Origin: Oscillospiraceae bacterium | GTDB taxonomy: Bacteria; Bacillota; Clostridia; Oscillospirales; CAG-272 | Direction of reading: 5' to 3' | Length of the DNA: 62,287 nt | Assembly (NCBI GenBank): GCA_015063625.1 | Contig: SVTT01000011.1 | Span: 1-62,287, forward strand | Part shown: piece after piece, positions 28,103-45,705 of the stretch | Layout of the letters: every line of letters begins with the position of its first letter | How positions within the stretch are numbered: the stretch's first letter is position 1 | Made by a program: the position numbers and the translations under genes | Notes under the pieces: model-generated | The model's input: only the letters and a program-made list of their open reading frames with translations | Told to the model about the DNA's origin: nothing | Databases searched by the model: none

Positions 28103-28396
28103 TTACTTCATACCATCGAAGAACTCGATGGTCTTGGATTTCTCGGTCAGGGTGACGATGGCCTTCTTCCACTCGGAAGTGTAGCCTGCGTGCACGCCCA
28201 TTCTCTTGGGCTTCTTCTTCATGTTGATCGTGTTGACCGACTCGACCTCAACCTTGAACATTTCCTCAACTGCGTGAGCGATATCTGCCTTGGTGGCACG
28301 GCTCTGCACCTTGAAAACGTACTTCTTAGCATCAAGCATGTCCATGCTTGCTTCCGTGATGATCGGCTTAATGATGATATCCTCTACCATTCTCAT
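28103..28396 (-). CDS. rplW: 50S ribosomal protein L23
   Basis: A 97-aa tunnel-exit protein. It has [20 protein letters not shown] and [19 protein letters not shown]. The ATG at 28396 overlaps the rplD stop by one base (TAATG), and GGAGGTG lies 8 nt upstream. Confidence 0.96.
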
Positions 28397-29019
28397 TATG
28401 CGTACACCTCCTCAAGCTTCGCAACGGCATCCTTGGCGATAATGAACTTATCGGCATTCAGCACGTCGTATACATTCATCGTGTTGTACTGGGTGGTCTT
28501 GACACCGGGGATGTTTGCGCAGCTCTTGATGACCTTCGCATCCACCTCGGGAAGCACGATCAGAGCCTTCTTATCAGCGCCGAGTGCCTTCAGCATGGCA
28601 ACCATGGTCTTGGTGGAGTAATCAGCGGCGCTGATCGCTTCCACGACCATCAGATCGCCTGCGGCAACCTTAGAGGACAGCGCACTGAAGAGCGCCACTC
28701 TCTTGGTCTTCTTGTTCATACCGGTGCGGTAGTCACGGGGCTTCGGGCCCAGTGCGATGCCACCGTGAGTCCACTGGGGTGCACGAGTGGAGCCCTGACG
28801 AGCTCTGCCGGTGCCCTTCTGTCTCCAGGGCTTCTTGCCGCCGCCCGAAACCTCGGTGCGGGTCAGAGTGGACTGGGTGCCCTGTCTCTGATTCATCAGA
28901 TATGCACGAACTGCTGCGTGGAGGACAGCACCGTTTACCTCTCTGCCGAAGATCATATCGGACAGATCAATGTTGCCGACAGGTTCGCCGGCCATGTTAT
29001 AAACCTTTACGTTTGGCAT
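28396..29019 (-). CDS. rplD: 50S ribosomal protein L4
   Basis: A 207-aa protein. The loop [20 protein letters not shown] and RSPQWTHGG-type sequence ([18 protein letters not shown]) are the hallmarks. In enteric bacteria L4 represses its own operon; whether that applies to the long leader here is unknown. Confidence 0.97.
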
Positions 29020-29037
29020 GGTATTTCCTCCTTCCGC

Positions 29038-29667
29038 TTAGTGCTTGACCGAGTCGCGGATGAACACGATGCCGTTCTTGGCGCCGGGAATGGCACCCTT
29101 GACAGCAATGAGGTTCTTCTCTGCGTCGATCTTGACAACCTTGAGATTCAGAACAGTGACCTGCTCGTCACCGTACTGGCCTGCCATCTTCTTGTTCTTA
29201 AAGATGCGGGCGGGGTCGATCACACCCATAGAACCGGACTGACGGTGGATGGGACCGATACCGTGAGTTGCACCGAGCTTGTGCAGATTCCATCTCTTGA
29301 TGGCACCGGTGTAACCGCGACCTTTGGTGGTACCGGTCACATCAACCTTGTCGCCTGCGGCAAAGGTCTCTGCGGTGATGACGTCGCCGACGTTCAGTGC
29401 GGCGCAGTCCTCAAGGCGAAACTCCTTCAGATGCTTCTTTGCGGCAACGCCTGCCTTTGCAAAGTGGCCCTTCATGGGCTTGTTCACCTGCTTCTCCTTG
29501 GCGTCGATGAAGCCAAGCTGTACGGCATCATAGCCGTCGTTTTCGGCGGTCTTCTTCTGTGCGACGACGCACGGGCCCGCCTCGATAACCGTAACCGGGA
29601 TCACATTTCCGACTTCGTCGAAAATCTGAGTCATACCGATCTTCTTACCGATAATACCCTTTTTCAT
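29038..29667 (-). CDS. rplC: 50S ribosomal protein L3
   Basis: A 209-aa early assembly protein. It begins [20 protein letters not shown], with the tip loop [31 protein letters not shown] precedes the ATG. Confidence 0.98.
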
Positions 29668-30093: not shown

Positions 30094-30404
30094 CTGTTTT
30101 GCCTCCTTTTTGAATTCTGCGTCCCGTGCGGGCGTGCCTTATAATTAATGAAGACTTGCAGCAACGGTCCGCATTTCGCATTGGGGCGAGAACGCCTTGA
30201 CACCGTGCCGAGTGTTTCTTCCATCCCCCGACAAAAACCGGATTTGCCCACACCAGCATTGCATGGGTAGTTTCCGGGGGTTAGGGACGGGGGCAGAAGC
30301 CTTCGGCGCATGTCTTACGTGCTCAATCGCCCGATTGAAACGGACATACTCTGCGAAAATTCCCCGCTTACGCGGCAACCTCTCGCTTCATCGCATATCA
30401 GACT
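30094..30404 (-). promoter_or_regulatory. Long leader of the S10 superoperon
   Basis: About 310 nt separate the predicted transcription start from rpsJ. The leader contains complementary blocks, e.g. CCCCCGGAAAC (30271-30281 region) with GTCGGGGG further along, so it can fold. An in-frame 77-codon reading frame inside it has no ribosome binding site. I cannot match it to a named r-protein leader family by eye. Confidence 0.55.
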
Positions 30405-40983: not shown

Positions 40984-41057
40984 GGCGCCATGGCCAAGCG
41001 GTAAGGCACGGGTCTGCAAAACCCTTATCCCCGGTCCGATTCCGGGTGGCGCCTCCA
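40984..41057 (+). tRNA. tRNA-Cys (GCA)
   Basis: 74 nt with encoded CCA. Acceptor GGCGCCA pairs with TGGCGCC; anticodon GCA lies in GTCTGCAAAAC. Its last 21 nt plus AA are duplicated 3.66 kb downstream at 44693-44715, marking an insertion site. Confidence 0.97.
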
Positions 41058-41270
41058 AACAAAAGAGCACTGCGAGAGCAGTGCTCTTTTGTTTGGAACG
41101 ATGTTTGCCCTTGCGGGCAAGAGATGTTGCCTTGGGCAGTGATGTTCACTGCGTGAGTGATGTTTCGCCTTGCGGCGAAGTGGGCAAACATCACATCACT
41201 TTGCGACGAAGGAGCAATACATCACTGTGGCAAAGCCATAACATCACTGCGGCAACGTCGCAACATCACT
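41058..41270 (+). repeat. Mirror-word hairpin array, element B (GTGATGTT type)
   Basis: A perfect terminator-like hairpin (CAAACAAAAGAGCACTGC, loop GAGA, complement; about 41056-41096) directly follows tRNA-Cys. After GAAC comes the outer stem GATGTTTGCCC (41100-41110) paired with GGGCAAACATC (41182-41192). GATGTT words stand at 41100, 41123, 41141 and 41159. Complementary ACATCAC words stand at 41189, 41219, 41241 and 41263. Fillers between the words are self-complementary (e.g. CACTGCGTG, TCGCCTTGCGGCGA). Confidence 0.8.
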
Positions 41271-41272
41271 CT

Positions 41273-41300
41273 TTGCAAACGGTCAAAATTATGCTATAAT
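41273..41300 (+). promoter_or_regulatory. Promoter of the four-helix-bundle gene
   Basis: TTGCAA, a 16-nt spacer ending TGC and TATAAT, placed directly after the array. The same ATGCTATAAT block and the following CGAAAGCGAGGTGCT occur in the second copy at 44951-44980. Confidence 0.75.
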
Positions 41301-41323
41301 GTAATCGAAAGCGAGGTGCTACT

Positions 41324-41683
41324 ATGACTGAATCTAAACTCCGTGAATTATCAATGGAATTTTCCGTAGATATTATTAACCTTGTCAAATACTTAAAATC
41401 AAACCACGAATCCGTTATCGCTAATCAGATCGGCAGAAGCGGAACTTCTATCGGTGCAAATATCCACGAAGCACAGTACGCACAAGGCAAAAAGGATTTT
41501 ATATCCAAGCTTGAAATTGCTCTTAAAGAAGCAAGTGAAACCGGCTATTGGCTTGAACTTTTGCACAGAACGAATTATATTGATGCTCAACAGTATAAAA
41601 TCTTATCAGATAAGTGCGCCACTCTCCGCGTTATGCTCGTTTCCTCTTGCAGAACGGCAAAAGCGAATATTGATAACAAATAA
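41324..41683 (+). CDS. Four-helix-bundle protein (S23 / Avd-like family)
   Basis: A 119-aa, all-helical protein. LRELSMEFSVDIINLVKYLK, then NQIGRSGTSIGANIHEAQYA and KKDFISKLEIALKEASETGYW are the signature of the TIGR02436 family, originally described from 23S rRNA intervening sequences and related to the Avd protein of diversity-generating retroelements. Family members form basic pentamers that bind nucleic acid. GAGGTG precedes the ATG. It lies immediately downstream of hairpin array element B. No reverse transcriptase is in the window, so a DGR role is unlikely; binding of the array RNA or DNA is an inference. Confidence 0.88.
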   Translation: MTESKLRELSMEFSVDIINLVKYLKSNHESVIANQIGRSGTSIGANIHEAQYAQGKKDFISKLEIALKEASETGYWLELLHRTNYIDAQQYKILSDKCATLRVMLVSSCRTAKANIDNK

Positions 41684-41710
41684 TTTTCAAAAACTCATCT
41701 TGCCTTTCGA

Positions 41711-41757
41711 CTTCCTTTCGGTATAATGGTGTTACCAAACCGAAAGGAAGTTTTTTA
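41711..41757 (+). terminator. Terminator of the four-helix-bundle gene
   Basis: CTTCCTTTCGG and CCGAAAGGAAG arms followed by TTTTTTATTTT. Conserved in the decayed second copy at 45212-45251. Confidence 0.85.
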
Positions 41758-41961
41758 TTTTTTATCCGATAAACCGATAAAATAATCTGCGCTTACATTG
41801 TAAAAATTGCAAAGCTTAATAAGATCCTCTATTTTGAGTTCGGCGCGCCCATCCTCTATATGACTGTACCCTTGTTGTGACTTGTTAATTATTTTACCGA
41901 CTTCTTTTTGCGTGAGATCGTTGTCTTCACGTAAATCTCGCATTCTTATTCTGTAGTTCAT
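41755..41961 (-). CDS. Xre-family helix-turn-helix repressor
   Basis: A 68-aa single-domain Cro/CI-type DNA-binding protein. The helix-turn-helix is LTQKEVGKIINKSQQGYSHI, and YNVSADYFIGLSDKK is the typical end. AAGGAG precedes the ATG. It is divergent from the SGNH/MBOAT operon, whose promoter contains paired ATACTCAA/TTGAGTAT sites, so it is the probable repressor of that operon and of itself. Confidence 0.88.
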   Translation of the reverse strand: MNYRIRMRDLREDNDLTQKEVGKIINKSQQGYSHIEDGRAELKIEDLIKLCNFYNVSADYFIGLSDKK

Positions 41962-42046: not shown

Positions 42047-42140
42047 GCTCTTGTGAACTATCGTAGCTTGCGTTTTTCGATGTGTAACCTCGGTTGCGTA
42101 TCAAGTGCATTTGAATCATGCAATTATCGGAGGGAATAAA

Positions 42141-43136
42141 ATGAAAAAAATATTTTGGTGGCTATTAAAGGCGTTTGTCAGTGGTGTGTTGGCTTTCGCA
42201 ATTCTAACATCGTTTTGTATACTGTATTACAATGTTCCTGTTCATTCATCCACTGTTGACGGTGTTACCGATTACTCATGGGAAAAAAACAAATTTTATT
42301 CACGAGGAACAGAGGGATTTGCCCTGGGAAAAACCAATAACGAAGGTTATATAAACTCTTATGATTATCAAGAAGGTATGGATATCGATGTTTTGATTAT
42401 GGGCTCGTCGCATATGGAAGCCTATAACGTAGCTATGAAAAAAAATACAGCTTCGCAACTTAACCTATTGTTAGGAGACAACTTGGTGTATAACATCGGA
42501 ATATCCGGACATAACTTTTTGACATGTACCAGTAATTTCGAAGCAGCGCTTAAAAAATACGCGCCCAAAAAATATGTGGTAATAGAAACGTCTTCGCTTT
42601 CGTTTAGTGATACCGACCTTAAAAAAGCGATTGAAGGAACGACTGAGGAACTGTCCTCCCACTCAGAAGGAATTGTCGGTCTGCTTCAAAAAAATCAATT
42701 GTTAAGATTATTATATTTGCAATTTTCTAATTGGAAGGGTGCTTCTGCTCAAAATGCGCCCAACACCGATTCAAAAACTCAATCAGAGAATAACTATGAG
42801 GAGTTATATTTGAGTTTATTAAATAACCTATCACAAACCGCCAAAGACAATGATGTACAATTAATCGTTTTATATCAATCAAATGTACATATTGATGCGG
42901 AAACTGGAGCAGCAGTGACAACAAATAGAGAGTCCATTCAAATCTTTGCAACGTATTGCGAAAGGAGTGGAATAGAATTTGTTGATATGTCGGAAAGATT
43001 TTCAAAGGAATATAATCAAAATCACATTCTTCCCCACGGCTTTGCAAACACATCGGTGGGACAGGCGCATTTGAACGAGCACGGGCACCGAATGATAGCG
43101 GACGAGTTATTTAAAATCATAGGAGGGAAAGAATAA
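42141..43136 (+). CDS. SGNH-type membrane-anchored protein (DltD/AlgX-like)
   Basis: A 331-aa protein with an N-terminal signal anchor (about 4-30, KIFWWLLKAFVSGVLAFAIL) and an extracytoplasmic SGNH domain. The nucleophile region is VLIMGSSHMEAYN (88-91), and the C-terminal His is in HLNEHGHRM. Paired with an MBOAT protein, it probably completes transfer of an acetyl group to a surface glycan. GGAGGG lies before ATG 42141. Low GC and different codon use from neighbours point to acquisition. Confidence 0.8.
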   Translation: MKKIFWWLLKAFVSGVLAFAILTSFCILYYNVPVHSSTVDGVTDYSWEKNKFYSRGTEGFALGKTNNEGYINSYDYQEGMDIDVLIMGSSHMEAYNVAMKKNTASQLNLLLGDNLVYNIGISGHNFLTCTSNFEAALKKYAPKKYVVIETSSLSFSDTDLKKAIEGTTEELSSHSEGIVGLLQKNQLLRLLYLQFSNWKGASAQNAPNTDSKTQSENNYEELYLSLLNNLSQTAKDNDVQLIVLYQSNVHIDAETGAAVTTNRESIQIFATYCERSGIEFVDMSERFSKEYNQNHILPHGFANTSVGQAHLNEHGHRMIADELFKIIGGKE

Positions 43137-44527
43137 TGTCGTTTGCATCACTTGAGTTTGTGGCTTTTTTTGCTGTTGTATTCGTAGTAACATTGTTTTT
43201 ACAAAGATTAAGAAAGCAAACGTACAAGGAATTGTTTTTGCTTTTCGCCAGCTATTTTTTTTACGGGTATTGGGATTGGCGCTTTGCTTTTCTCTTGTTA
43301 TTCGTCAGTTTTTCCGCGTACATTTCGGCGTTGTTTATTCATAAAAAGGCATCCCTTGTGATTGGTATCATTATACCGCTTGTTGTATTGGGATTCTTTA
43401 AATATTTCAACTTTTTCTTATCGTCATTTTCTATTTTGATTGGTGGCGATTTAGGAATATTAAATATTATTCTACCGGTAGGAATCTCATTTTATACGTT
43501 CCAATCGTTAAGTTACGTTATTGACGTAAAAAGAAAAAAGATCAAAGCAGAAAAAAATTTTATACGTCTTGCGTTGTACATAAGCTTTTTCCCTCAGCTT
43601 GTTGCAGGTCCCATTGTAAAAGCTTCAGAATTTTTGCCCCAGTTAGATGAAGATCGGCGTATTACGCGAAAAAATATGGAATACGGCATACAGTTGATGC
43701 TGTTTGGTTTTTTTAAAAAAATAGTTATTGCTGATCATCTTTCAGTCTTTGTGGACGATGTATTTAAGATGCCGACGGCATTCCATTGGCTTTCGATAAT
43801 ATTGGCGGTAATCTCGTATTCGATACAAATTTATTTTGATTTCTCCGGTTATTCGGACATTGCAATCGGATGTGCAAAATGCTTTGGATATGATTTCTGT
43901 CCAAACTTCAATTTGCCGTATCTTTCGGAAAATGTAACTGTATTTTGGCGCAGATGGCATATTAGCTTGTCTACCTGGCTAAAAGAATATTTGTATATTC
44001 CATTGGGAGGAAACCGAAAAGGAAAGATCCGTCAGTACATCAATCTTTTTGTTACGATGTTGTTGGGTGGATTATGGCATGGGGCAAATTGGACGTTTGT
44101 TTTTTGGGGGGCAATGCATGGCTTGGCTCTTTGCGTTGATAAATTACTTCCCAAAAAGTTGTTCAGCAAAGGAATTTTAAAGTTCGTAGGAACTACATTG
44201 ACCTTTTCGTTCGTTACGTTTTTGTGGATTTTCTTCAGAGCTGACAATTTTGAAGTTGCGTGGCATATCATTAAGGGTGTTGTTACACTCCAAGGCGGAA
44301 TCCTACAGCCATTCTCTTGGTCCTTCTTGGCAATTGCTGTAGTTGGCGCCGCTTCTGCCCTTGCAATATATCGCTCCAAGAAAAACAAAGAGGCTCAGAT
44401 TAATGGATTCTATCCTTTGTTCAACCTGAACACTGTTAGAGGATTGACAATTTTGTTTATAGAGATCGGATCGATTCTGTGTCTTGGATTTACAGGCGAA
44501 CATCCTTTTGTGTATTTTCAGTTTTAA
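43136..44527 (+). CDS. MBOAT family O-acyltransferase (AlgI/DltB-like)
   Basis: A 463-aa membrane-bound acyltransferase with about ten or more helices. Family segments are FPQLVAGPIVKASEF, DFSGYSDIAIG, FWRRWHISLSTWLKEYLYIP (first conserved His) and GGLWHGANWTFVFWG (catalytic His near 315). It exports acyl groups across the membrane for modification of a cell-surface polymer by its SGNH partner. The ATG overlaps the upstream stop (TAATG). The polymer is unknown. Confidence 0.9.
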   Translation: MSFASLEFVAFFAVVFVVTLFLQRLRKQTYKELFLLFASYFFYGYWDWRFAFLLLFVSFSAYISALFIHKKASLVIGIIIPLVVLGFFKYFNFFLSSFSILIGGDLGILNIILPVGISFYTFQSLSYVIDVKRKKIKAEKNFIRLALYISFFPQLVAGPIVKASEFLPQLDEDRRITRKNMEYGIQLMLFGFFKKIVIADHLSVFVDDVFKMPTAFHWLSIILAVISYSIQIYFDFSGYSDIAIGCAKCFGYDFCPNFNLPYLSENVTVFWRRWHISLSTWLKEYLYIPLGGNRKGKIRQYINLFVTMLLGGLWHGANWTFVFWGAMHGLALCVDKLLPKKLFSKGILKFVGTTLTFSFVTFLWIFFRADNFEVAWHIIKGVVTLQGGILQPFSWSFLAIAVVGAASALAIYRSKKNKEAQINGFYPLFNLNTVRGLTILFIEIGSILCLGFTGEHPFVYFQF

Positions 44528-44682: not shown

Positions 44683-44712
44683 TAAGCGGTCACGATTCCG
44701 GGTGGCGCCTCC

Positions 44713-44930
44713 AAAAACAAAAGCACTTCGTAAGAAGTGCTTTTGTTTTTGGAACGATGTGTTCCGCTTGCGCGGAACGTGATGCGCACTTCGTGCGTGA
44801 TGTTTCCTTCGGAAGTGATGTGCGCTTCGCGCGTGAGGATGCGGAACACATCACATCACTTTGCACCGCAGGTGCAATACACCACTGTGCCGCAAGGCAC
44901 TACATCACTTCGGCGTAGCCGATGCATCAC
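44713..44930 (+). repeat. Mirror-word hairpin array, element C
   Basis: It follows the duplicated tRNA-Cys end. The terminator-like hairpin CCAAAAACAAAAGCACTTC/complement (44711-44752) comes first, then AAC, then the outer stem GATGTGTTCCGC (44756-44767) paired with GCGGAACACATC (44841-44852). GTGATG words are at 44779, 44797 and 44815. ACATCAC-type words are at 44848, 44879 (ACACCAC), 44902 and 44924. Fillers are hairpins (GCGCACTTCGTGC, TTCCTTCGGAA, GCGCTTCGCGC). Confidence 0.8.
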
Positions 44931-44950
44931 TATCTACAAATAATAAAATT

Positions 44951-45251
44951 TATGCTATAATATAACCGAAAGCGAGGTGCTGTTATATCTGAATCAAGAT
45001 TACGTGAGTTATCAATGGATTTTTCCGTTGACATTATAAATCTTGTCAAATACCTTAAAAGCAATCACGAATCGGTTATTGCAAATCAGATCGGCAGAAG
45101 CGGTACAAGTATCGGCGCAAACATTCATGAGGCACAATACGCCCAAGGCAAAAAGGATTTTATATCCAAGCTTGAAATCGCACTATTTCAAATATTTATC
45201 TGGACTTTCCCCTTCCTTTCGGTATCATGGTGTTACCCGACCGAAAGGAAG
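44951..45251 (+). pseudogene. Decayed second copy of the four-helix-bundle gene
   Basis: The promoter (TATAAT at 44956-44961) and the GAAAGCGAGGTGCT ribosome site match the intact copy. The start codon has become ATA, and the gene is fused by an internal deletion of about 160 bp after KLEIAL (near 45186) to the conserved terminator (45212-45251). The remaining 65 or so codons are close to the intact protein (DFSVDIINLVKYLKSNHES...). A second frame from the later ATG at 45015 gives no complete protein. Confidence 0.75.
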
Positions 45252-45705
45252 CTTTTTATATGGAATACGAACCGGGGCACTATTATCAAGTATAAGTCGC
45301 ACTCGTGCTTTCATTATGCGATTTTAAGAATCATCCTCCTAAGGACGATTTTGAACGGGAGCGCAAAGAACTGTTAGAAAAGCTCTTTTCATCACGCAAA
45401 GCAAAATCGACAAGCTTGACGGTACGGATAAACGTCTCCCGAAATATTACAGGAAGAATATTGAAAGATATAGCAAAGTCTGATACAATTATGGCAAATC
45501 AAAAAGGCGGTCTTTACATGTATAAAGTTGGATTATCAAGCTGCGCTTTTTCGCTTAGGGACAAGCGAGCAAGTTCACCGCGCCCACAGGCGCATTTTAC
45601 GGGCGCGTTCACCAAGGGAAAGCGATCCGAATCCGCCCGAAAGCCTTGATTCTCAGAGCCCCGACCCCTCGACGCCTCGCGGCACGTTCGGGTATGATCA
45701 ACCGC
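45252..45705 (+). other. Gene-poor stretch with decayed coding fragments
   Basis: It contains a short reading frame at 45260 (MEYEPGHYYQV then stop). Further on is a fragment, in another frame, with the text DGTDKRLPKYYRKNIERYSKV. These look like remnants of one small gene broken by frameshifts, but I do not recognise the family. The last part (from about 45590) is repeat-derived text shared with 58880 and with the window start. Confidence 0.45.

Follow-up and report, generated by a model that had tools for sequence, protein, structure and literature searches.

Inverted word arrays beside PF05635 genes behind tRNA genes of Clostridia: a candidate gene-cassette module with a putative word-reading protein

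Introduction

Small four-helix-bundle proteins of the S23/IVP family (Pfam PF05635) have for decades been familiar from rRNA intervening sequences (IVS), with no function known for them (PMC4990558). Directly behind a tRNA-Cys gene on contig SVTT01000011.1 of an Oscillospiraceae bacterium (GCA_015063625.1; the whole stretch of 62,287 nucleotides is called the window in the following) a gene of this family is preceded by a long hairpin and by an array of short repeated words, which stand in forward and then in inverted orientation and are separated by mini-hairpins. The locus raises the question of what such an array is for and whether the neighbouring protein reads it, and word arrays of this kind suggest a job for the family. 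An earlier note on the window had supposed binding of the protein to the array, either RNA or extruded DNA, and a unit that moves or is prone to recombination.

In the present study the window is read as carrying two copies of a mobile gene-cassette module, whose PF05635 protein would read the word of its own array as folded DNA and thereby mark the ends of the unit; the probability of this reading is put at roughly 0.62. As proposed, the module would consist of a terminator hairpin, a word array, a promoter and the four-helix-bundle gene, to which many relatives add another gene. Sequence comparison among relatives brought out this architecture, the association of array and gene, the placement behind tRNA genes, the co-variation of word and protein, the conservation of the hairpins and the presence of the same unit at different tRNAs. 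The phenomenon is larger than the earlier note described, with a general link to tRNA genes, family-specific words, further downstream genes and a similar rule in other phyla.

Results and Discussion

Association of arrays and genes

The window is a contig of a 1.76-Mb assembly of 28 contigs, which is 93.7% complete. From this genome and its relatives a first set of 93 four-helix-bundle genes was taken, and the 450 nt 5' of each gene were searched, with no preset word, for a 6-mer present in several forward and then several inverted copies; the minimum of upstream sequence was 250 nt in this search, 200 nt in an unordered test and 180 nt for genomes fetched later. Forward-then-inverted arrays with a score of at least 8 were found at 44 of the 93 genes, as against none in 465 dinucleotide shuffles and none in the 93 downstream regions. 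A second set of 80 loci was fetched by protein, not by array, from metagenome-assembled genomes titled Clostridia, Clostridiales, Oscillospiraceae, Ruminococcus or Ruminiclostridium, many of them from animal guts. Both sets together comprise 173 genes, of which 5 are duplicates and 168 distinct; 165 of the distinct genes had enough upstream sequence for the search, and arrays preceded 97 of these. The six known words gave 69 arrays in the 748 kb of the 80 loci and none in the reversed sequence; a gene was no more than 150 nt away in 52 cases and not in 17. Within the window's genome the pattern ACATCACN{10,30}ACATCAC matched 42 times and its backward-read form not at all, although a few of the matches resemble coding sequence. 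Within 75 nt, 106 of 171 genes had a promoter-like site with no more than 2 mismatches, versus 1.2% of base shuffles; this count, like those of spacer stems and junction hairpins below, includes the 5 duplicates. The unordered test of words upstream and downstream was set aside as too noisy, with 41 of 340 shuffles reaching a score of 9, and ordered tests were used instead.

The earlier note had made its proposal depend on an association of array and gene beyond chance, and the comparisons with shuffled and with reversed sequence both point to one. Since tRNA genes have terminators and are hot spots of islands, ordinary terminators or repeats beside tRNAs might have been over-read as a pattern; the shuffles, the downstream regions and the reversed sequence refute this explanation, which is hardly credible.

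The four-helix-bundle protein

The window protein matched PF05635 (23S_rRNA_IVP) with 98 bits (cut-off 33.8, E 4.6e-28) and no other Pfam family, and it scored 106.7 bits against TIGR02436 (cut-off 24). Its solved homologues 2rld (E 3.6e-47) and 2gsc (E 1.3e-7) have five chains each, and the Xanthomonas protein is reported to be a homopentamer (PMC4990558); by analogy the window protein is probably a pentamer as well. Searches of PADLOC and PHROGs gave no match, and no relative of the gene occurred among the viral contigs searched. Two unannotated human-gut scaffolds labelled 'Bacteriophage sp.' (L264 and L265, MT835815.1 and MT835590.1; their phage status is that of the record label) carry hairpin arrays with the gene, and in L264 array and gene adjoin, on their upstream side, what reads as a tRNA.

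Words follow the protein

The words fall into families, TGATG, TGATA, CGATA, TGAAG, TGAAA, TGAAT and some rarer ones, and each protein clade tends to have its own. In a tree that comprised 67 proteins, with 35 of the TGATG proteins among them, the word changed 8 times versus at least 28 times in 200 label shuffles; proteins below 100 aa and arrays scoring below 7 were excluded from this and the residue tests of the first set. The genome of the window itself holds three words, GTGATG, GTGAAG and TGAAATC, each beside its own gene (one of which is truncated), which argues against a single host-wide reader.

Screening of the alignment columns in the first set led to the column of Glu64 of the window protein. 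Where base 4 of the word is T, Glu64 was present in 87 of 87 unique proteins, and where it is A, Gln or His stood there in 21 of 21. The same rule was then applied to genomes fetched later with other queries and to the two gut phage records, arrays scoring below 8 being excluded: T went with Glu in 16 of 16 and A with Gln or His in 15 of 16, or 15/15 and 15/15 after one repeat of a first-set protein and one unreadable residue had been dropped. Two TTATA-word proteins, both with Glu, were kept apart from the counts, and nine arrays of the word GCTAAAT, which fall outside the rule as written, all went with Gln. On a tree of 93 rows (with 25 of 81 TGATG proteins) that was built without the residue-64 column, base 4 and residue 64 each changed four times and agreed in all rows; residue 64 was the sole column with an accuracy of 1.0, followed by one at 0.925, with Ser95 at 0.903. 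Nine CTAAA-word proteins joined this tree after their residue had already been seen.

The words could also follow the clades only through joint inheritance of array and gene, with a host factor as their reader. Array and gene are physically linked, and being passed on together would by itself suffice for the words to agree with the clades. Base 4 changed on four branches only, and independent pairs on well-supported branches agreed in 3 of 3 (p = 0.25). With 71-96% identity to the closest protein of the first set, the later proteins mostly enlarge clades already known and do not represent further switches, and in a non-redundant screen of 27 rows the column of Ser95, with many different residues, also separated base 4. 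On the other side stand the three words of one genome with a gene for each, the word copies within one array, which change together, and the single residue that tracks the base in further proteins, so that joint inheritance as the whole explanation is judged unlikely. The claim of the earlier note that the protein binds the array gains from both the agreement of word and clade and the tracking of base 4 by residue 64, and the protein is likely to read the word of its own array in a sequence-specific manner.

Hairpin spacers and the form of the array

Between neighbouring words of the same orientation 567 spacers were compared, and 52% of them contain a perfect stem of at least 5 bp, as against 1.4% of base shuffles; 374 of the 567 are distinct in sequence with the stems kept. 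For the analysis of loops both halves of the array were oriented to the strand on which the word reads CATCA or its counterpart. Among the 229 distinct stem-bearing spacers 151 have loops of 3 nt, which are GNA in 97 cases (55/70 in the forward half, 42/81 in the inverted half) and are closed by a C-G pair on the word-defined strand in 144. C(GNA)G loops form unusually stable mini-hairpins in DNA, whereas hairpins of RNA usually carry GNRA or UUCG tetraloops.

The array might instead work as RNA, in the form of a structured transcript similar to a 23S IVS, which would be bound by the protein and perhaps cut by RNase III. Its predicted RNA folds are stable (the two modules of the window have folding z-scores of -7.3 and -8.1, and 0 of 200 shuffles were equally stable), and the family includes S23 proteins encoded in IVS (PMC4990558). 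However, the array sits between a terminator-like hairpin and a promoter-like site, and for this reason the mRNA of the gene should not contain it. Furthermore, the loops in both halves are mostly C(GNA)G triloops, oriented by the word, and not the usual tetraloops of RNA, which favours folded DNA. A function as RNA is accordingly rated as quite unlikely, and between the two forms that the earlier note had allowed, RNA or extruded DNA, the loops lean towards the latter. Recognition of the array as DNA appears on balance the more probable, and it may concern the word together with its hairpin on single-stranded or cruciform DNA.

Placement behind tRNA genes

For 92 of the 168 distinct genes a tRNA gene was found on the same strand within 800 nt upstream, versus none on the opposite strand and three downstream on the same strand. 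Sixteen tRNA isotypes are represented, and the distance from tRNA to gene was 215-300 nt in 76 of the 92. The order often met with at these tRNA-side loci is tRNA, terminator hairpin, word array, promoter and gene. At 83 junctions of tRNA and array the terminator-like hairpin had a median perfect stem of 15 bp (at least 10 bp in 59), and its 5' arm began at base 1 or 2 past the tRNA in 49. Identical left-hairpin sequences were found behind different tRNAs, and the left hairpin thus probably travels with the unit. The tRNA-Cys site is variable, since only 2 of 13 loci from 12 congeners (97-420 nt read) contained a word array, one of them after a mini-element.

A duplication of the tRNA end as a general target-site duplication was considered and rejected. 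An exact downstream copy of at least 15 nt was present in 5 of 84 loci, compared to 1 on the opposite strand, and most of the five have other explanations: in L167 (loci are numbered L) the copy is a whole second tRNA, and in L191, L067 and L044 it lies before the array, beside a separate mini-element of 150-225 bp. Single cases are possible, as the copy in L102 lies past the gene and could be a true end of the unit, and likewise the copy at 44693 in the window. Some imperfect copies, missed by the exact-match test, occur in L042, L072, L179 and L055.

The mini-elements were observed in their own right. In L245 an element of about 225 bp, with a terminator and hairpins and without a word array, is flanked by tRNA-Cys on one side and by a 14-nt copy of its 3' end on the other, and in L255, L244 and L250 a similar downstream flank follows directly past the tRNA, which makes an empty/filled pair for the mini-element. 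Similar mini-elements precede the word arrays of L191, L067, L044, L042, L072 and L179. Elsewhere in the window's genome (L005; G000 C12, about 28150-29400) four successive word arrays stand beside a tRNA, by eye tRNA-Met; they amount to two arrays duplicated in tandem, and a remnant of the gene accompanies them.

Cassettes, cargo and movement

Open reading frames (ORFs) of at least 60 aa that start from -40 to +120 relative to the stop codon followed 114 distinct genes and belong to 96 sequence families, a count made with no chance control; its firm part is the excess at exactly -1, where 45 of the 114 overlap the stop codon as ATGA. The window's own gene has no such downstream ORF. Of 119 such putative cargos 73 were scanned against Pfam; among the matches are an immunity protein family as well as acetyl-, methyl- and nucleotidyltransferases.

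Seventeen pairs with the same cargo were compared, several of which are cut by contig ends or share the tRNA. Four groups have one cargo behind different tRNAs: L146 (Leu), L168 (Tyr), L181 (Gln) and L203 (Leu); L155 (Met) and L186 (Tyr); L166 (Arg) and L201 (Val); L180 (Pro) and L184 (Val). In all four the likeness begins at or near the tRNA 3' end (within the tRNA in two, 24-31 nt past it in one); its other limit lies, for the first three, near or past the end of the cargo. The likeness is only partial in the pairs L173/L197 and L177/L198, and no match was found for L066/L159 and for L039/L199, the latter being the same locus in opposite orientation.

A right-end motif of about 65 nt was modelled from 12 cassette ends. 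Of 18 ends viewed 15 have it. Downstream on the same strand it turned up in 28 of 69 loci, or in 16 of 57 when the 12 loci that seeded the model are set aside, and never on the opposite strand. The motif consists of two imperfect direct repeats, most commonly of the form ACGCACC..TGCGT (L181:7033-7104, L200:1515-1579 and others), and may be a recombination site. Directly 3' of it a new hairpin and array often follow, frequently with another word, as in L196 with the order tRNA-Arg, TGATG unit, motif, TGATA unit, motif; L196 and L190 contain two successive units each, and L200 three right-end motifs in a row. One cargo gene stands under a TGATA array in L196 and, with 94.6% identity over 462 nt, under a TGATG array in L190, from which it follows that arrays and cargos are exchangeable. 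In the window's genome 8 gene-less arrays at different sites were aligned, out of the 42 pattern matches in all. The supposed mobility of the unit is borne out, as far as comparison goes, by same-cargo units at different tRNAs and by the gene-less copies across one genome, and a use of the array in movement or maintenance of the unit seems fairly probable.

A simpler role would be that of an autoregulatory operator only, in which the protein, bound to duplex words by the promoter, would regulate both the cargo and the gene that encodes it, while movement is due to ordinary tRNA islands. The array does abut the promoter-like site, and the frequent ATGA overlap of the downstream gene is in line with joint control. 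Yet an operator needs no hairpin spacers, which are far more frequent here than in shuffles, and neither the gene-less arrays at other sites nor the inverted words that also stand downstream of the gene in other phyla (see below) fit such a role, so that it is held to be improbable.

The two modules of the window

The coordinates of both modules are given in Table 1. Module 1 follows the last member of a tRNA cluster, and all parts that the earlier note had named between tRNA-Cys and terminator were found in the order described, including the linker GAAC between left hairpin and array. Its four forward words read GATGTT/GTGATGTT; for the inverted half four ACATCAC words had been claimed, and five were counted, the first two of which overlap. 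The first forward word is part of an inverted repeat of 11 nt (GATGTTTGCCC at 41100-41110, GGGCAAACATC at 41182-41192) that includes the first inverted word. The distances between words in the window are mostly 16-26 nt, and the words are not head-to-tail. The similarity to relatives stops at the terminator of module 1, with ends at 41755 and 41762.

Table 1. Positions of the features of both modules and of the sequence between them in the window.
Feature	Position	Strand	Source
tRNA-Cys, putative target/anchor of the unit	40984..41057	+	ARAGORN, Rfam
Module 1, left terminator-like hairpin, perfect 20-bp arms, start within tRNA 3' end (TCCA...TGGA)	41054..41097	+	repeat search
Module 1, forward half of word array, (GT)GATGTT at 41100, 41123, 41139, 41157, mini-hairpins between	41100..41181	+	
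Module 1, inverted half of word array, ACATCAC at 41188, 41193, 41219, 41241, 41263, mini-hairpin spacers	41182..41269	+	
Module 1, sigma-70-like promoter TTGCAA-16-TATAAT, directly 3' of last word	41273..41300	+	by eye
Module 1, four-helix-bundle gene, 119 aa, PF05635 / TIGR02436, Glu64 tracks word base 4	41324..41683	+	profile match
Module 1, post-gene terminator (hairpin 41710-41751)	41710..41761	+	repeat search
Possible cargo between modules: GDSL-like hydrolase (below Pfam cut-off) and MBOAT acyltransferase	42105..44527	+	
21-nt duplicate of tRNA-Cys 3' end, start of module 2	44693..44713	+	
Module 2, left hairpin, perfect 20-bp arms	44710..44753	+	
Module 2, word array, forward GATGTG/GTGATG, inverted ACATCAC-type, mini-hairpins	44755..44935	+	
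Module 2, four-helix-bundle gene, truncated, residues 2-68 only, 94% identical	44988..45188	+	
Module 2, terminator hairpin	45212..45251	+	

The recurrence of the module, as noted earlier, holds for array, hairpins and terminator; module 2 extends over 44693-45260 and its larger blocks are 80-85% identical to module 1. It does not hold for an intact gene, as the second copy is truncated. The GDSL-like/MBOAT pair between the modules may travel with the unit and is possibly an acetylation cargo. In agreement with the earlier note no rRNA is present, as Rfam finds four tRNAs and an S10-Clostridia ribosomal protein leader in the window, the latter at 30327-30400 on the minus strand and just over the cut-off.

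Other phyla and known systems

Seventeen plasmid loci from overlapping record sets of 26 and 25 were tested for forward words upstream and inverted words downstream of the gene. Eleven passed (score at least 7) versus none of 340 shuffles; the pattern had been seen by eye beforehand in six, of which four pass, while seven of the other eleven pass. The eleven belong to Cyanobacteria (8), Bacteroidota, Spirochaetota and Chloroflexota (1 each), with words such as AATTCG (Nostoc, Dolichospermum), GTGATT (Bernardetia) and ACCAGT (Euhalothece), and a Monoglobus locus fails the ordered inverted-word test. On several plasmids head-to-tail words flank the family gene, and several of these genes lie between or beside restriction, DISARM or cas genes. 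In L260 the gene lies between type I restriction genes, in L261 between DrmD and MmeI, in L263 and L275 between genes for helicase and DNA methylase, and in L270 and L271 between genes for DUF1156 and Swt1-family HEPN proteins, which suggests that the elements may insert between the genes of operons. On the cyanobacterial plasmids L268, L269 and L273 the gene stands between or beside cas1, cas2 and csx2.

REPIN/RAYT systems combine a short word and a hairpin in inverted pairs with a Y1 (HUH) transposase gene beside one copy and dispersed gene-less copies, and integrons consist of tandem, mostly single-gene cassettes of the same orientation with a conserved boundary and a fixed anchor. With the former the units described here share the inverted arrangement of word and hairpin, the cognate gene beside one copy and the dispersed gene-less copies; however, the linked gene matches PF05635 only and not a Y1 (HUH) transposase, and the cassettes have about 4+4 words instead of one pair, a placement behind tRNAs and cargo. 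With integrons they share tandem cassettes of the same orientation and with a common boundary (L196, L190, L200), whereas the anchor may be any of the 16 tRNA isotypes, each cassette brings its own promoter and array, and no integrase was seen beside the cassettes, no search aimed at IntI or attC having been made. By analogy the tRNA-side system would work like REPIN/RAYT and, in tandem cassettes, like integrons, with an unrelated protein. From CRISPR-type arrays it differs in that about half of the spacers are self-complementary.

To the diversity-generating retroelements (DGR) there is a faint likeness, as the window protein matches the Avd equivalog model with 19.6 bits (E 0.00087), below the 80-bit cut-off. 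Reverse transcriptase (PF00078, RVT_1) was matched in 25 of the 96 genomes searched and not at all in the window's genome at its 93.7% completeness, which agrees with the earlier note's remark that none is here, and a retro-mechanism was rejected for this genome.

The 23S rRNA IVS shares the PF05635 protein. In the Coxiella IVS as published, tandem heptamers (GACAGAT) stand just 5' of the start of S23p, and the terminal inverted repeats form a stem of 28 bp (PMC4990558), which fits the same rule. In contrast, the unit of the window, where Rfam finds no rRNA, is placed at a tRNA 3' end with a promoter-like site of its own, and tRNA-side units have hairpin-spaced words and further downstream genes.

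Short tandemly repeated repetitive (STRR) sequences of Cyanobacteria are tandem heptamer repeats without a known reader. On several cyanobacterial plasmids such words flank the family gene in inverted orientation, unlike the hairpin-spaced words of the window. Heptamer repeats of Beggiatoaceae (TAACTGA) and of some Cyanobacteria have been described with no binding protein known for them, and MacGregor (2015) speculated that the mobile element could be an unidentified repeat-binding protein (PMC4679880).

Among the papers that searches of the open-licence PMC literature brought up, no title or abstract links the PF05635 family to word arrays. The tRNA-side unit of the window, with its PF05635 member, is neither a 23S rRNA IVS nor a DGR, and its linked gene is not a REP-associated transposase.

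Proposed mechanism

In the proposed mechanism the recognised motif would be a word and an adjoining short hairpin with a C(GNA)G loop, both on one strand of folded, single-stranded or cruciform DNA, and residue 64 would help to read base 4 of the word, with Glu for T and Gln or His for A. Since the motif lies on one strand, the forward and inverted halves would be equivalent ends on opposite strands. A pentamer could bind several word-plus-hairpin units and bring the two inverted halves together. Through this binding the ends would be marked or paired, and units would in this way come to lie, persist and multiply behind tRNA 3' ends. Gene-less arrays would be served in trans, and cutting and joining would fall to another factor, acting in the cell or during replication. 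From the comparisons we infer that the protein binds directly, that what it recognises is DNA and that the binding drives movement.

Apart from the points raised on residue 64, several observations weigh against this reading. No array was detected at 68 of the 165 genes. ACATCAC arrays occur without a close TGATG-type gene in some genomes (e.g., G086, G036, G032), and across 96 genomes the presence and absence of both are imperfectly linked. The preference for GNA is weaker in the inverted half. No nuclease or recombinase was linked to the window's gene or found among the listed 25 of 60 Pfam families of the 73 scanned cargos, and the right-end motif was not found in the loci examined of the window's own genome, of which the whole was not searched. 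No exact empty/filled pair was found for the word-array unit, and among the 13 congener loci an exact empty tRNA-Cys site could not be fixed. The strongest links in the argument are the co-variation of word and protein and the conservation of the hairpins, the weakest the enzyme and the direct proof of movement.

Conclusions

Tentatively, and at a little less than even odds, the proposal may be widened to PF05635 proteins across bacteria, which would read repeated DNA words by a residue-to-base code and run mobile elements with inverted word arrays at their ends: integron-like tRNA-side cassettes in Clostridia, at least some of the unexplained tandem heptamer repeats in Cyanobacteria, and 23S IVS as members that landed in rRNA. 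The identification of a reader of heptamer repeats has been called for (PMC4679880). With a word array, a linked protein and one residue that tracks one base, the question of S23 function and that of the heptamer reader both become directly testable. If true, the proposal would mean a further mode of nucleic-acid recognition, whose code seems to be simple, and a system of gene cassettes working at tRNA genes.

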